The notes below the pieces were generated by a model. It was not told the DNA's origin and did not search any database. It saw only the letters and a program-made list of their open reading frames with translations. Shown in pieces: positions 24,995-30,265 of a stretch of 64,000 nucleotides of DNA (the stretch's first letter is position 1; each line of letters opens with the position of its first letter). The position numbers and the translations under genes were made by a program. Location of the stretch: positions 1 through 64,000 of the forward strand of contig CAKZOB010000054.1 of assembly GCA_937135955.1 (NCBI GenBank), read 5' to 3'. Origin of the DNA: an uncultured Anaerolineales bacterium (GTDB lineage Bacteria; Chloroflexota; Anaerolineae; Aggregatilineales; Aggregatilineaceae).

Positions 24995-25627
24995 TCATGG
25001 CCCCAGTACCAGGCGTAATCGCTGCTCCAGCTCGCTGAGGATGATAGCAGTGGCCCCCCACACCTTGTGGCCCGCGATGTTGTACCAGGGCACCCGCATG
25101 GACGAATCCCCGACCGGCCACTCTTCGACGACCTTTCGGGTGTCGTCGAGCAACCACCCCAGCGGGCATTCGATAACTTCCACCACCTCTGCCGCATCAG
25201 GTTGCCAGGCGGGACGCCGCGCCACATGGCCGACAACCGGAGTCACCATGAAGTCGCTGGGCGGGATGTAGACCTGTGTCAACTGTCCCAGCACGTGCAC
25301 CGGTTCGCGCAACCCCAATTCTTCGCGAGCTTCCCGCAATGCTGCCTGCAGGGCTGTTTCACCCGGTTCGCGCGCCCCGCCAGGCAAACCGATCTGCCCG
25401 CTGTGCACATCCTGGGGATGAGCCGCCCGGCGCACCAACACCACGGCCAATTCGCCGTCCCGGGGATACAGTAATACCAACACGCTGGCCTGCCGTGGCG
25501 CGCCAGCGCGTGCCTCACTACGGCGCATGGCCCGCGGGCGAGGAGCCATCAGGCGCTGCGCGGCCTCGCTGTCGAAGCCGGACAGCGCCAGGGCAGCGCG
25601 TATCTGCGCCAGTGTCAGGAAAGTCAT
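24995..25627 (-). CDS. Nudix hydrolase (CoA-pyrophosphatase-like)
   Basis: 210 residues. The Nudix box is complete: GGAREPGETALQAALREARE followed by ELGL (G-x5-E-x7-REUxEExGU). The preceding VRRAAHPQDVHSGQIGLPGG resembles the UPF0035/CoA-diphosphatase signature of NudL-type enzymes, which hydrolyse CoA to ADP-ribose-type phosphates and 4'-phosphopantetheine. Its ATG overlaps the stop of the 86-residue gene upstream (ATGA), so it is the last cistron of the E1/E2/JAB-like operon. Whether it belongs functionally to that system or is a passenger is unknown. Confidence 0.88.
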   Translation of the reverse strand: MTFLTLAQIRAALALSGFDSEAAQRLMAPRPRAMRRSEARAGAPRQASVLVLLYPRDGELAVVLVRRAAHPQDVHSGQIGLPGGAREPGETALQAALREAREELGLREPVHVLGQLTQVYIPPSDFMVTPVVGHVARRPAWQPDAAEVVEVIECPLGWLLDDTRKVVEEWPVGDSSMRVPWYNIAGHKVWGATAIILSELEQRLRLVLGP

Positions 25628-25884
25628 AGGGGGTGATACCAGGCGCGCCGCTTGCGCAGTGAGATTCCGGCGTCGGTCTCGTCGCGCACGGTTGTGCGCA
25701 CGCGCCCACGAGGATCAATGTGAATCTGCCCTGCCTGTTGCAGGCGCACGAACTCCTCCGGCGTAATGTCGGGCGCAGGCTCACCGCCCAGCCGTTCCAG
25801 CCGCGGCCCCATGTCACCGTCCGCCGGAGTCTCCTCAGGAGGAATATCGTCTACCGGAGGCACATAGTCGTTGTGATCAGCCAT
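25624..25884 (-). CDS. Small acidic protein of unknown function in the E1/E2/JAB-like operon
   Basis: 86 residues from the ATG at 25884, with SD TAGGAGT. The N-terminal third is acidic and Pro-rich (VPPVDDIPPEETPADGD); the middle has ITPEEFVRLQQAGQ; the C-terminus is basic and aromatic (LRKRRAWYHPL). There is no Gly-Gly end and no clear beta-grasp pattern, so it is not an obvious ubiquitin-like modifier. It follows the E1-like gene by four bases and overlaps the Nudix gene, so it is co-translated with them. A partner, substrate or highly divergent modifier role is possible. Confidence 0.7.
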   Translation of the reverse strand: MADHNDYVPPVDDIPPEETPADGDMGPRLERLGGEPAPDITPEEFVRLQQAGQIHIDPRGRVRTTVRDETDAGISLRKRRAWYHPL

Positions 25885-25888
25885 ACTC

Positions 25889-26803
25889 CTACCCTTCGTC
25901 GTTGAGCATCTTATCGTCCGTTGCCGAAGCCGCCTGTCCCAGGCGCAACAGATCGTCAAGCGAGAGCGTCGCTTCCTGACGCTCGCTGTTCTGCCGCTGA
26001 CTGGCGCAGACCAGGCATTGCGGGTTGGCCGGCACGCTGACCCATTCCGCCGTATGCGGCAGGGCCATTCGCCCCTCGAAAATCTCCAGCGCTGTGTTTG
26101 CCTGAATGATGGTGTTGCCTGGCCAGGTACGGTGCGCAGGCGTGCCGCGCAGCAGATGATTGAGCGCCATGTCCGCCTGGATCGCCGCCACCCGCACCAC
26201 GTGCAGCCACAGTCCAGGTTCCGAAGCCAGTGTCCCATCCGGGCCGATCAATCCGTAGTCAAGCCGTGCTTGCGGACCACGATCGTCCAGTCCTTCGCGC
26301 AGGTGCTCTGCCCAGCAGGCATAGCATGGCCCCTGCCGCGGATGGATCAGGCACACGTCGCCCCCCTCACCGCGCTCGTACACCCCGGCGTAGACTGCCG
26401 TCAGGCCGTATTTCAAACACGCCTCATTGATGGCATACTTGGGCGGCTCCTGATCCACGCCAACCACTACCACGTCGGCCCCTTGTAATGCTTCCAGGTG
26501 ATCTTCGATGCGCCCGATGACCGTTTCCACCTGCGCTGCTGGATTGCGCTGGCGAATCAGGTCCGCCACCGCCTCGGCTTTGGGACGCCCTACCTCGCGC
26601 AGGTCAGCGGCATGGCGTACAACATTCGCTTCTTCCAGCACGTCGTCGTCTATCAGCACAAACCGCCCTACCCCGCTCATCGCCAGACTTACGGCGACAA
26701 AACTACCGCCTGACCCCAACCCGACGATGGCCGCCGTGCGCGAATACAACAGCGTCATCACGTCGTCGCTGAACAGCCGTGCCACGCGATCCCATTGCGT
26801 CAT
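25889..26803 (-). CDS. ThiF/E1-like ubiquitin-activating-type adenylyltransferase
   Basis: 304 residues from the ATG at 26803, overlapping the JAB-like gene by four bases. Rossmann-type ATP site GLGSGG (28-33), acidic IDDDVLEEANVVRH (51-64) with the Arg expected for ATP binding, and GRPKAEA (Lys75). Two CxxC pairs (Cys160/163 and Cys263/266) should bind structural zinc, as in ThiF/MoeB. The family adenylates the C-terminus of a beta-grasp protein and often passes it as a thioester. With E2-like and JAMM-like genes next to it, the likely role is E1 of a ubiquitin-like pathway, not thiamin or molybdopterin synthesis. The C-terminal LSLDDLLRLGQ (280-290) resembles motifs at the ends of two other operon proteins. 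Confidence 0.88.
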   Translation of the reverse strand: MTQWDRVARLFSDDVMTLLYSRTAAIVGLGSGGSFVAVSLAMSGVGRFVLIDDDVLEEANVVRHAADLREVGRPKAEAVADLIRQRNPAAQVETVIGRIEDHLEALQGADVVVVGVDQEPPKYAINEACLKYGLTAVYAGVYERGEGGDVCLIHPRQGPCYACWAEHLREGLDDRGPQARLDYGLIGPDGTLASEPGLWLHVVRVAAIQADMALNHLLRGTPAHRTWPGNTIIQANTALEIFEGRMALPHTAEWVSVPANPQCLVCASQRQNSERQEATLSLDDLLRLGQAASATDDKMLNDEG

Positions 26804-27897
26804 GATACGCCATCCACCTTCAGGGCTGGAGTGGTTTTCTCCACATGCCACACCAGCTCGATCAGCGTCCGCCGCGAGTCCCAGGACCAGTCGGGCAATT
26901 GCGTGGTCAGCAGCGGGCGCGACGCAGCATAGAGCGCCTCGAACATGTCCTGCTCTTCCTCTACTGGCACCAGCGGAGCCACACGCACCGCTGGCATGGT
27001 GTTAGGATAATCCATACCGGTCACCAGCAACACCACCTGGCTGACGCCCTCCCTGAATATAGCGAAGCAGATTTCATAAGGAGGACGGCCATCAGCATCC
27101 CAACGTACCACATCCACCGTGTAACCTGCCTCGCGCAGCAGGTCGTACTCCTGCTCGAAGCGCCGCGGATGGGCCAGGTGCCAGGCCAGTGGCGGCAACG
27201 CGGGCAAGCGATCGTCTGGCCAGACGACTGGCGCTACGGCCACGAAGCGCGGCGCGCGCTGGCTCATGTACCAGAAGTCAATCCGCACCAACCACCCTTC
27301 TTCCTCGCAGCGCCGGACAATAGACTGTGGCCCCAGAGGGGGCATGCCCTGCGCGTTGGTCTCTTCCGCGCCCGCTTCCGCTTCATCGGTCGAGACCTCT
27401 GCCAGCGGATACATGGTGACGATGGGCGCGACCACCAGTTCCACCGGCGTCTCTCTGTCCTCGATCATGGCGCGGGCTGTGCGGGCATCTCCCCCGGAAG
27501 GAGCGATCATGTCGCCTGGTTGCTTGTGCCAGTCGCCCACATGGGCCAGGGGTACGTCCCACTTGGCCGCCAGCGCCTTGCCATAGGACGGGCGACGCAA
27601 TTCGCGGAATGCCTCCCAGTTCACATACCACCAGTGAAAGACGTCTCCCTGCCAATCGTCGCCTTGCTCGAACCGGCCCCACTCGCGCACAGCATCGCGC
27701 CCCGGACTGATAGTCTCCAGCACATAGACATCTGGCTCCAACCGCCCCGGCTGCGGGACGATCAGGCCGACCATAGCTTCACCGGTCTCTGGCTCCGGGT
27801 AACGCAGTGCGCCCTGCACAATCTTGTCCAGCACGCGCTCGGCGAGTATCAGCCGGGGCACATCGCGCGGCAGTTCAGGCAACGTTTCGGGACTCAT
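26800..27897 (-). CDS. JAMM/JAB-like protein with C-terminal E2/RWD-like domain
   Basis: 365 residues. The N-terminal half follows the prokaryotic JAB pattern: Glu40 in ETGEAMVGLI, then HVGDWHKQP with Ser134 and Asp137 in APSGGDARTA. The spacing fits H-x-H-x7-S-x2-D, except that the second metal His is Gln126 (codon CAA), so zinc binding and isopeptidase activity are uncertain. The C-terminal part (about 240-360) has an E2/RWD-like sequence (PYEICFAIF, MDYPNTMPAVRVAPL, WSWDSRRTLIELVWHV) with no Cys where an E2 would have one. It overlaps both neighbours by four bases. The likely role is removal or processing of a conjugated modifier, or a non-catalytic adaptor. Confidence 0.75.
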   Translation of the reverse strand: MSPETLPELPRDVPRLILAERVLDKIVQGALRYPEPETGEAMVGLIVPQPGRLEPDVYVLETISPGRDAVREWGRFEQGDDWQGDVFHWWYVNWEAFRELRRPSYGKALAAKWDVPLAHVGDWHKQPGDMIAPSGGDARTARAMIEDRETPVELVVAPIVTMYPLAEVSTDEAEAGAEETNAQGMPPLGPQSIVRRCEEEGWLVRIDFWYMSQRAPRFVAVAPVVWPDDRLPALPPLAWHLAHPRRFEQEYDLLREAGYTVDVVRWDADGRPPYEICFAIFREGVSQVVLLVTGMDYPNTMPAVRVAPLVPVEEEQDMFEALYAASRPLLTTQLPDWSWDSRRTLIELVWHVEKTTPALKVDGVS

Positions 27898-28418
27898 GGT
27901 GTTCTCCTCTGGAAGCCAGGGCCTTTGCCACGGTATACCCTTTCCTCAACCCCTGGCCAGATGCCGGTTGCGCGCCAGGTGTAGTAGGCATACAGCCACT
28001 GAATAGCCCAGCCTGCCACCGTCACCGCCGTGGACGTGCTCGGATTCCAGCCGTAGGCCACACCATCATAGGGGTTGAACAGGCACAGTTGGCCGTCTAC
28101 GAACTGATGCTTCTCGCTATAAACGTGCGGCTTGACGACGTAAGCTTCGGCAGGCCGGTTAGGGTATCCCTCGACATAGATAATCTTGAGCGTGTGCATC
28201 CGCTCCGGAATACCCCGCATGTTGATCTCGACCTCGCCGATCCAGTACAGCTCGCCCTCAGGAGGCACTACCAGCCGGAACGTGTCGCCAAAGGTGGCGC
28301 GCATCATCTCCACTTCCAGCCGCAGCCGCGCCGATACCCGTTCTGGCGTCCCCCACCAGGCTGTCTTGCCCATTGCGATCAATCCTCCACCACTTTTTGT
28401 CAGGCGTACCTGTTCCAT
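27894..28418 (-). CDS. E2-like ubiquitin-conjugating-type protein
   Basis: 174 residues. It follows the UBC-fold pattern: strand-rich N-terminus (LYWIGEVEINMRG), HTLKIIYVEGYPNRPAEAYV (the YPxxP turn), then HQFVDGQLCLF with candidate catalytic Cys112 preceded by His104, and WNPSTSTAVTVAGWAIQWL as the C-terminal helix after the W-x-P turn. This agrees with the bacterial E2 families described by comparative genomics. It would accept a modifier as a thioester from the E1-like protein and transfer it to a target. The gene starts 9 bases after the upstream membrane protein and overlaps the JAB-like gene. An internal ATG (residue 16) is an alternative start. Confidence 0.82.
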   Translation of the reverse strand: MEQVRLTKSGGGLIAMGKTAWWGTPERVSARLRLEVEMMRATFGDTFRLVVPPEGELYWIGEVEINMRGIPERMHTLKIIYVEGYPNRPAEAYVVKPHVYSEKHQFVDGQLCLFNPYDGVAYGWNPSTSTAVTVAGWAIQWLYAYYTWRATGIWPGVEERVYRGKGPGFQRRTP

Positions 28419-28427
28419 TCCGGGGCA

Positions 28428-29117
28428 TCACTCTCCCTGCCCCGCCAGCAACTCAGAGAGGCTCACCGGTTGTGCAGCCTGCGCACGCAAAGCAGCCTGC
28501 AACTCGGGCGAAATCTCGCCGTCGCTGGCCAGGTAGGGTCGTAATGCGCTGCCCGCCGGTTGCCACACGAACCGATGCACCGCCAGGGTCATCCCGCCAG
28601 CCAGCAGGTGGTATTCCCATGTGTCGAAAATGATCTTCTCGTCGCGCAGCGGAAGCCACGTGCCAGGCAACAGGGTGTTGTAACCGTGTTCCAGATCGTA
28701 GCGCGCCTCGTCCGCATAGCGCAGACGTCCTCGCCCATCACGAATCTCAAAGCGCACTGTGCCCCGTGCCCGATGCGGTAACCACAATTCGGCGAACGGG
28801 CGCAGGTAGCCAGCATCTGCCGGGACGGGACCCTGCCGCACCAGCCGGAGCTGATCGCTGTCCTGATAGACCAGCAACCCCAGATCGGTCACGTTGACAT
28901 ACTCTGGGCCACCGGGGTACCTGGCCCGCTGTGTTGCCTTCACCGCAACCGGCGATTGCTCGATATGAGCCGTGCTCTGCCCGCGCCGCAACTTCCCGGA
29001 TGCTCCAGTTGCCCGGCCAGTAATTCTTGGCGCAGGGCTACGGATCACCCACCACAAGACCGCCACGATGAGCACGAGCACTATGAGTTGCCCGATGACG
29101 TGCATGGCTTCGGTCAC
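28428..29117 (-). CDS. Single-TM protein of unknown function, operon paralog B
   Basis: 229 residues. One TM helix near residues 8-25 (IGQLIVLVLIVAVLWWVI) is followed by a soluble, beta-rich domain. It is a paralog of the next gene upstream: both have a block like VRFEIRDGRGRLRYADEA, then GYNTLLPGTWLPLR and a GG-LAVH-F segment. The C-terminus ends in VSLSELLAGQ (218-227), like the E1-like protein and paralog A. I do not recognise the family. Being tightly packed before the E2-like gene suggests a membrane-linked component or target of the conjugation system. Confidence 0.72.
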   Translation of the reverse strand: MTEAMHVIGQLIVLVLIVAVLWWVIRSPAPRITGRATGASGKLRRGQSTAHIEQSPVAVKATQRARYPGGPEYVNVTDLGLLVYQDSDQLRLVRQGPVPADAGYLRPFAELWLPHRARGTVRFEIRDGRGRLRYADEARYDLEHGYNTLLPGTWLPLRDEKIIFDTWEYHLLAGGMTLAVHRFVWQPAGSALRPYLASDGEISPELQAALRAQAAQPVSLSELLAGQGE

Positions 29118-29123
29118 CTTCTC

Positions 29124-29903
29124 CTAGCGCGTCCGAAGCTGACGGCTCTGCTGGCGCAGCAGTTCCTCCAGGCTGAGTGGGAGCGATTCGTCGTCTGGAT
29201 CGCCACGCCAGATGCGGTCGCGCAGCAGCTCGCCATCTGTCCCCGCCCGCCGTCGCCATTCGGCCAGCGACTCCGACAGATTGAAGTGATGAACGCCCAA
29301 CACCCCGCCATCTATACTCACATGGGCCGACCAGCCACCCGCTTCCAGTTCCGCCGCCCGTTTGCGAACAGGCAGGCGATAGTCTGGCACCAGCACGTTT
29401 TCCCCCGGCTGCAACCACTTTTCCGCTTCGTAGGCGTACTGTTTACGCCCCGAACCGTCGAAGAGTTCGAAGCGTACCAACGCCAACCCTCCTCCCAGGG
29501 AAGGTGGCACATCCACGATGGCAAAAGGGCGAATCCCGTCGTCGTCCAGCGAGATGAACCGTCCGCGTCGCAGGGCCATGCCATCCGGACGCTGCTCGTC
29601 CACAATCAGGCCGATATCCAGCAAACGGTAGAGCGACTCATAGTTGGGCAGGCTGCGTGCCCGCGCTGCCGCCTCGCGAGCCACGTCCGACGGCACGGCC
29701 TGAGGAGGTTCGCGGCGCAGAGCCTGCCGCACCACAGCCAACACATCTAGCTGACCCACAACCGCGAGTAACACGCCCAGGTACATCGCCAGCAGGGCCG
29801 CTGCTACCGCCGTAGGAGCGCGCCCCGAAATCAGCGTGACCGCCAGGGCCAGGCCGACGATGACCAGCCATACCATCGTGCCACGATTACTCTGTCGGAA
29901 CAT
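29124..29903 (-). CDS. Membrane protein of unknown function, operon paralog A (first gene)
   Basis: 259 residues. Two hydrophobic helices lie near residues 10-27 and 30-50, followed by a soluble domain paralogous to the next gene (VRFELFDGSGRKQYAYEA, GENVLVPDYRLPVR, GGVLGVHHFNL). The C-terminal LSLEELLRQQ (243-252) matches the motif in the E1-like protein and paralog B. It is the promoter-proximal gene of the seven-gene operon. No family is recognised and no catalytic residues are evident. Confidence 0.72.
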   Translation of the reverse strand: MFRQSNRGTMVWLVIVGLALAVTLISGRAPTAVAAALLAMYLGVLLAVVGQLDVLAVVRQALRREPPQAVPSDVAREAAARARSLPNYESLYRLLDIGLIVDEQRPDGMALRRGRFISLDDDGIRPFAIVDVPPSLGGGLALVRFELFDGSGRKQYAYEAEKWLQPGENVLVPDYRLPVRKRAAELEAGGWSAHVSIDGGVLGVHHFNLSESLAEWRRRAGTDGELLRDRIWRGDPDDESLPLSLEELLRQQSRQLRTR

Positions 29904-29954: not shown

Positions 29955-30084
29955 GACCTAATCGTGTGGGATATCACTCTGCTACATCTGTACGCGAAAC
30001 CCGCCTGGCAGGTTGCAGGCTTTACAAGGACTTCCAGGGCCTGCCGCGCGATGCTTACGACCAGCGAGGTTGTCAGCGACCTTG

Positions 30085-30265
30085 CCGTGCCCGGCGACCC
30101 TCATCCCCCGACCCCTTCTCCCGCGCTGCGAGCGAAGGGAAGCACCTGGGCGAAAGAAAGCAAGCCCCCTCTCCCTCTCGCGACTGCGTCGCGGCGAGGG
30201 AATTTAGGGGTGAGGGGCAGCAAACTGCTGCAAATGGCCTGTCACACTTTGCACGCACCCCACGA
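30085..30265. repeat. Dispersed palindromic intergenic repeat, copy 2
   Basis: Matches copy 1 at 10.3 kb: CCCCTTCTCCCGCGCTGCG segment, palindrome CGCGAC-TGC-GTCGCG flanked by CTCTCCCT and GAGGGA, then GAGGGGCAGCAAACTGCTGC and CACTTTGCACGCACCC. It occupies most of the gap between the E1/E2/JAB-like operon and the gyrB promoter region. Confidence 0.75.

Follow-up and report, generated by a model that had tools for sequence, protein, structure and literature searches.

Can a bacterium run an E1-E2 enzyme cascade without a ubiquitin-like protein as its substrate? The question is raised by a 64,000-nucleotide stretch (the window) of contig CAKZOB010000054.1, from the assembly of an uncultured Anaerolineales bacterium (GCA_937135955.1; Chloroflexota, order Aggregatilineales). 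Seven open reading frames (ORFs) run on its minus strand from position 29903 to position 24995 in the order M1-M2-E2-JAB-E1-A86-Nudix: a pair of membrane proteins, an E2-like protein, a JAMM/JAB-like protein, a ThiF/E1-like enzyme, an 86-residue protein and a Nudix hydrolase. The original prediction, made from the letters of the window, was of a membrane-linked ubiquitin-conjugation operon with no visible modifier. Our tentative reading, to which we assign a probability of roughly 40%, is that these genes encode a ubiquitin-like acyl-transfer pathway that is a core trait of one Chloroflexota order, with A86 as its client (acceptor roles included).

A seven-gene operon and its retention in one order

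The predicted architecture of seven minus-strand genes with tight spacing was confirmed. Successive junctions from M1 to Nudix measure +6, +9, -4, -4, +4 and -4 bases, thus at most 9 bases, and the protein lengths of 259, 229, 174, 365, 304, 86 and 210 amino acids (aa) agree with those first given. The prediction also proposed looking for the same neighbourhood in relatives, and it does recur there. Scanning one genome per species with E2 as the query yielded 54 loci in Chloroflexota in which E2-JAB-E1 follow one another in this order on one strand wherever the contig permits, a conserved E1-like/E2-like/JAB neighbourhood of the kind that defines the prokaryotic operons of Iyer et al. 2006. 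The two membrane paralogs M1-M2, which are conserved partners, precede E2 in 14 of these loci and in the distant family f94 of the same order; A86 follows E1 in 23 and the Nudix gene is present in 18. The complete seven-gene order was found in relatives of the window (L008-L010) and again in f94 (L139, L140, L142). Because the E2-JAB-E1 order recurs in 54 loci and the full order in relatives, the operon is beyond a chance arrangement; because the full order occurs both in the window's lineage and in f94, we infer from gene order that the set is ancestral to the order.

The A86 gene is retained even where it has left the operon. A large group, in which one genus (g232) predominates, has it not beside E1 but 11-13 kb downstream, directly before the Nudix gene; including this group, A86 was present in 14 of 14 operon-holding genomes tested. 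In another genome (G648) the M1-M2-E2-JAB-E1 cluster is 150 kb from an A86-Nudix pair, and Nudix remains beside A86 where A86 has left the operon, in the g232-type group and at L119. Several members of the g232-dominated group are suggested to be from sponge or marine samples.

Co-inheritance was assessed at two taxonomic depths. In a class-level sample of 298 genomes, 20 carried A86 and the same 20, all from the window's order, carried a close E2 (E under 1e-72); five further genomes had distant E2s only. A census of 154 genomes of the order detected E2 in 135 and A86 in 135, with both in 130, neither in 14, A86 only in five (74-84% complete) and E2 only in five (Fisher p 4e-12, without correction for relatedness). 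Families f95, f137 and f138 had neither. Most of the genomes are metagenome-assembled, and contig breaks explain some absences. Genomes of the order almost always hold one close copy, and its neighbours recur, gyrB and a response regulator among them; in the window, translations place gyrB upstream on the opposite strand and a response regulator downstream. The gene set is a vertically kept core trait of the order, not a mobile defence island.

The E2, E1 and JAB proteins

A Pfam search of the operon proteins gave matches for ThiF and Nudix alone. The E2 gene (27894..28418, minus strand, as are all operon features) exists as the predicted 174-aa ORF; its orthologs begin at Met16, and on that comparison the protein is probably 159 aa (28373-27894), leaving a 54-base gap to M2. 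PADLOC E2 profiles match it at 7e-15, and profile searching of the PDB recovered E2s, human UBE2L3 among them, with alignments spanning most of the domain at about 1e-5, as well as the bacterial E2 8hsb at 1.6e-4. The candidate catalytic Cys112 named in the prediction (174-aa numbering; codon 28083..28085), within HQ-x2-DGQLCLF, is invariant in 22 diverse E2s that share 50 invariant columns. By profile, the operon E2 is a genuine UBC-type protein. Pairwise identity across the order is 63-81% (48% for L059); JAB, outside L059, reaches 34-70% in those pairs, and E2 is thus the most conserved enzyme.

E1 (25889..26803) is encoded separately from E2, as predicted, and its ThiF-type assignment is supported: PF00899 matches at 5e-32 (111 bits), the PADLOC E1-E2 profile at 7e-27, and the ThiF/MoeB ATP-site residues G28xGSGG, D52, R63, K75 and D117 are invariant in aligned sequences. 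The protein also carries two CxxC zinc pairs. The original prediction had staked itself on a UBC fold, an E1 fold and co-occurrence in relatives; E2 is UBC-type by profile, E1 is ThiF-type, and the genes do co-occur.

JAB (26800..27897) comprises a JAMM/MPN domain (approximately residues 13-230) and a C-terminal domain. Its AlphaFold model is confident (predicted local distance difference test, pLDDT, 87.9) and has the JAMM/MPN peptidase fold, residues 13-230 scoring Z 14.9 to BRCC36 and 14.7 to Rpn11 in structure comparison (VIA); TIGR02256 matches at 2e-4 and the PADLOC JAB profile weakly, at 1e-5. The predicted JAMM/JAB-like identity therefore stands for the fold. What had gone unremarked is that the motif, H124-K-Q126-P...S134-x-x-D137 (27487..27528), reads GDWHKQPG, with Gln for the second zinc His; the E...HxH...D site of an active JAMM enzyme is lacking in the window's JAB and nearly all relatives.

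The C-terminal 125 residues (26824..27198) are modelled as a helix, four strands and two helices (a-b-b-b-b-a-a). The hhalign score of this domain to the E2 family is 28.2 (P 5e-4), and the reversed or unrelated profiles used as controls reach no more than 16.3; profile searches of the PDB and Pfam gave no credible match. The Foldseek and VIA lists for JAB are filled by the MPN domain and leave this domain unlisted; the case for an E2-like nature is accordingly built on profile comparison and the order of its elements. A conserved Cys277 sits in a strand, away from the E2 active-site position. We take the domain to be a probable inactive E2-like (RWD-like) domain.

A86 as the candidate client

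No beta-grasp match was found among the seven operon proteins in Pfam, PADLOC and other profile libraries. The description "no visible modifier" is accurate in that sense; it overlooks A86 (25624..25884), which is the likeliest client because it is the non-enzyme retained as widely as E2. A86 has a variable, disordered, proline-rich N-terminal tail, a conserved part of about 56 residues (28-83) and a short variable end. The label "acidic" fits the tail (isoelectric point, pI, 4.05) and not the conserved part, which is basic (pI 9.9). Members are 60-93% identical to the window's A86, except L059 (36%). The AlphaFold model is of low confidence (pLDDT 66.6), with two short helices and not a beta-grasp fold, and profile searching found no credible PDB match.

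In 24 of 27 distinct tails, 1-6 variable residues follow an invariant AWY; one A86 (L143) ends at the Tyr. Activation at the encoded C-terminus is disfavoured, the last residue being unconserved. Cleavage after an invariant Gly-Gly (LERLGG), as in a ubiquitin- or Pup-like precursor, was dropped as an idea when family f94 proved to have SG or AG.

The conserved part includes the peptide RDETDAGISLRKRRAWY (25636..25686), whose motif RR-x4-AG-x-SLRKRRAWY recurs outside A86, only in A86-holding genomes of the order. In two RHS proteins (L130:1577-1675 and L131:1566-1646, the latter spanning a frame change, with the core assigned by TIGR03696) it separates the RHS core from the C-terminal domain; three head scaffolding proteins (L132, L133 and L137, by PHROGs) have it at the N-terminus, and a giant ORF (L135) also contains it. 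Searching outside the order gave two partial weak matches only, both ending before RRAWY, and no viral contig carrying the peptide was confirmed. The distribution fits a recognition peptide exploited by mobile elements, and the scaffold-protein cases may be a helix-turn-helix-like coincidence. A fuller version, in which A86 is a non-beta-grasp tag or precursor and RRAWY a recognition signal copied by phage scaffolds and RHS toxins for processing or targeting, strikes us as rather unlikely.

In several lineages (L021-L025, L056, L057 and L127:3981-5195) A86 is followed by a gene of about 400-440 aa that by eye resembles protein-L-isoaspartate methyltransferases; it sits between A86 and Nudix where both occur. 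The Nudix hydrolase itself (24995..25627) is CoA-pyrophosphatase-like, matching PF00293 at 2.5e-17 and PRK10707 at 86.7 bits, below the cut-off of 134.

Membrane partners and a shared helix motif

M1 (29124..29903) has an N-terminal transmembrane stretch and a soluble domain; M2 (28428..29117), its paralog, has a GTG start and a transmembrane N-terminus. Profile searches gave no Pfam match and no credible PDB match for their soluble parts. The membrane link appears to be ancestral, but much of the order has lost it, and it is therefore an accessory rather than the essence of the system. In six loci (L013:7236-8000, L014-L016, L018 and L019) an additional membrane ORF (about 270 aa), possibly a distant M1/M2 relative, lies between M2 and E2. 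Beyond M1, a GC-rich palindromic repeat-like block occupies positions 30040-30240, between gyrB and the operon.

E1, M1 and M2 each have SL-x-[DE]-L in the C-terminal region, in the forms SLDDL (25949..25963), SLEELL (29157..29174) and SLSELL (28446..28463), respectively, and A86 carries [ST]PEEF within a similar helix, the one of best model confidence. Positions S281, L282 and L285 of E1 are invariant. The broader pattern S-[LP]-x-[DE]-[LF] occurs in the last 60 residues of E1 (53/53), M1 (14/14), M2 (14/14) and A86 (22/23), compared with E2 (0/48), JAB (1/54) and 3.6% in unrelated gene clusters. Such sharing suggests common docking. UBA5 docks its E2 through a C-terminal tail, and the same role is therefore suggested for this motif.

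A proposed pathway and its alternatives

In the acyl-transfer pathway that we favour, E1, with its intact ThiF site, would adenylate the C-terminal carboxylate of a small client, and E2, by homology, would accept the acyl group on Cys112 and hand it to an amine; transfer from the E1 adenylate would go straight to the E2 Cys. A86 would be the dedicated non-beta-grasp client, either the tag itself after trimming or an obligate acceptor. JAB, with its inactive E2-like domain, would be a scaffold, probably a pseudo-enzyme in the window's lineage and possibly an isopeptidase or processing protease in f94, the family with intact JAMM. The shared helix would dock E1, A86, M1 and M2 on one surface, for which E2 and the E2-like domain of JAB are the likeliest candidates; in this way M1/M2 would hold the pathway at the membrane.

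Several observations weigh against this proposal. In 53 E1 sequences no Cys is invariant outside the two CxxC pairs (four Cys), leaving no obvious candidate for the thioester-forming catalytic Cys of a conjugating E1. HKQP occurs in all but one of the JAMM motifs read from the 54 loci; the five f94 genomes examined, and L059, all keep HKHP. The last residue of A86 takes many identities among 27 distinct ends (A 7, L 4, V 3, D 3), unlike the Gly/Ala of CBASS cGAS, so that A86 as encoded would be a poor E1 substrate. Four E2-positive genomes more than 90% complete (G719, G726, G757 and G771) lack a detected A86, and shared ancestry partly accounts for the co-occurrence of E2 and A86 within the order. 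The helix pattern was chosen after inspection of the data, which makes its sharing suggestive only. Of the predicted membrane-linked conjugation, then, the enzyme families and membrane partners hold, while conjugation itself is unproven given the E1 and the degenerate JAB zinc site.

A further difficulty supplies the strongest competing explanation. Family searches for beta-grasp candidates in ten genomes of the order found 2-4 ThiS/MoaD-type proteins in every one, and the four in the window's genome (L107-L110) all end in GG. The modifier could be such a ThiS/MoaD/TtuB-type protein, with its gene elsewhere and a second use in sulfur transfer, leaving A86 as an adaptor or preferred substrate; we hold this to be possible, if doubtful. 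Against it, a second E1 of MoeB-like type (frames of at least about 400 aa) is encoded in each of the ten and, in several, lies close to a ThiS gene, which makes the operon E1 dispensable for the ThiS proteins. None of the ThiS genes was observed in linkage with the operon, and the proteins occur widely, without following the distribution of the system. Together, the ThiS-type proteins and the second E1 leave either A86 as the client or a ThiS-type protein serving in trans. A PF14461 search of the window's genome gave no matches, its controls being equally blank. A YukD-like protein was rejected as modifier: it occurs in just three of the ten genomes, and in that of the window an FHA-like part (judged by eye) comes after it. 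There, a 1292-aa FtsK/SpoIIIE-type ATPase adjoins the YukD-like and FHA-like protein in a type VII secretion-like cluster (L117; G000:C41:59000-67000).

The E1-like MccB modifies a short peptide, and MccB-type adenylators may lack a catalytic Cys. A86 might similarly be a precursor peptide, modified or processed by the E1-, E2- and JAB-like proteins with no protein conjugation at all. The anatomy of A86 (a tail and a conserved peptide), the missing invariant Cys of E1, the presence of MccB among its PDB matches and the degenerate JAB of most members agree with this. We judge it unlikely, since peptide maturation would not need an E2, here the most conserved enzyme with its Cys intact, and order-wide retention would be unusual for a peptide product. 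The JAMM Gln, the E1 lacking an invariant Cys, the inactive E2-like domain and the common docking motifs could also describe a non-catalytic membrane structural complex descended from a conjugation system; the invariance of E2 Cys112 and of the E1 ATP-site residues over aligned sequences renders that quite improbable. Defence of the CBASS/Bil kind is suggested by the matches to PADLOC E2, JAB and E1-E2 profiles and by the A86 peptide in RHS and phage scaffold proteins, and seems the most improbable of all for a vertically inherited, order-wide set, almost always one close copy among recurring neighbours, that encodes neither cyclase nor effector nor nuclease.

Comparison with known systems

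The nearest parallel is type II CBASS (cyclic oligonucleotide-based antiphage signalling system), the one well-studied system without a ubiquitin-like protein, in which Cap2/Cap3 conjugate a non-beta-grasp operon protein; Cap2 is an E1-E2 fusion, and the client is cGAS-like with a last residue of Gly/Ala (PMC10097602). Here too E1, E2 and JAB occur without a ubiquitin-like gene and the client is probably a non-beta-grasp operon protein, and E2 resembles that of an E2-only short CBASS (PDB 8hsb) around the Cys. The system differs in its separate E1 and E2, its lack of a cyclase or effector and its place in the core genome; profile searches of the seven proteins found no CD-NTase, and there is no E1-E2 fusion. 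BilABCD likewise has separate E1, E2 and JAB genes in one operon, with a two-domain ubiquitin-like BilA, two adenylation domains in BilD and a CEHH motif in BilB (PMC11354881). None of these features was found here: no operon protein matches a tandem ubiquitin-like BilA, there is no BilD-like double adenylation domain, and E2 reads C112-LFNPYDGVAYGWN without Glu/His at the corresponding places.

The same E1/E2/JAB families make up operons 6a-6e of Iyer et al. 2006, of which 6d/6e have ubiquitin-like genes, 6a-6c fuse E2 to E1, and one type includes inactive RWD/E2-like domains; the membrane pair, A86 and the JAB-RWD fusion are not described in the available sections of that account (PMC1779556). 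The enzyme families are thus common to CBASS, Bil and the 2006 classes, and the defining features tested are absent here.

In the Pup-proteasome system, the ligase PafA and Dop act with Pup, which has a GGE/GGQ end. A86 does not end in GGE/GGQ (no search was made for Pup-proteasome genes). Clusters in other Chloroflexota (L120, L121 and L123) look like a sister branch, with separate E2 and E1 of the same families, an adjoining JAB and RWD-like membrane proteins; they differ in a canonical HKHP or HSHP JAMM and in VWA/TPR/Band-7 partners, and no A86 or M1/M2 match was found in these stretches. Several of their membrane proteins carry RWD-like (inactive E2) domains, one fused to Band-7/SPFH. We found no description of the present system in the open literature; subscription papers fell outside its scope, and an earlier mention is possible.

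Implications

Among bacterial E1-E2-JAB systems, those best known form patchy defence islands. The present set, by contrast, belongs to the core genes of an entire order, where it is nearly universal. Such a distribution points to a housekeeping role, and bacterial protein tagging would here take a new form, outside mobile defence islands. Its small, defined set of parts (E1, E2, JAB-RWD and A86) is open to in vitro reconstitution. The system raises two testable questions: whether E1-E2 cascades can serve a tag without the ubiquitin fold, and whether bacterial ubiquitin-like pathways have physiological, not immune, roles.

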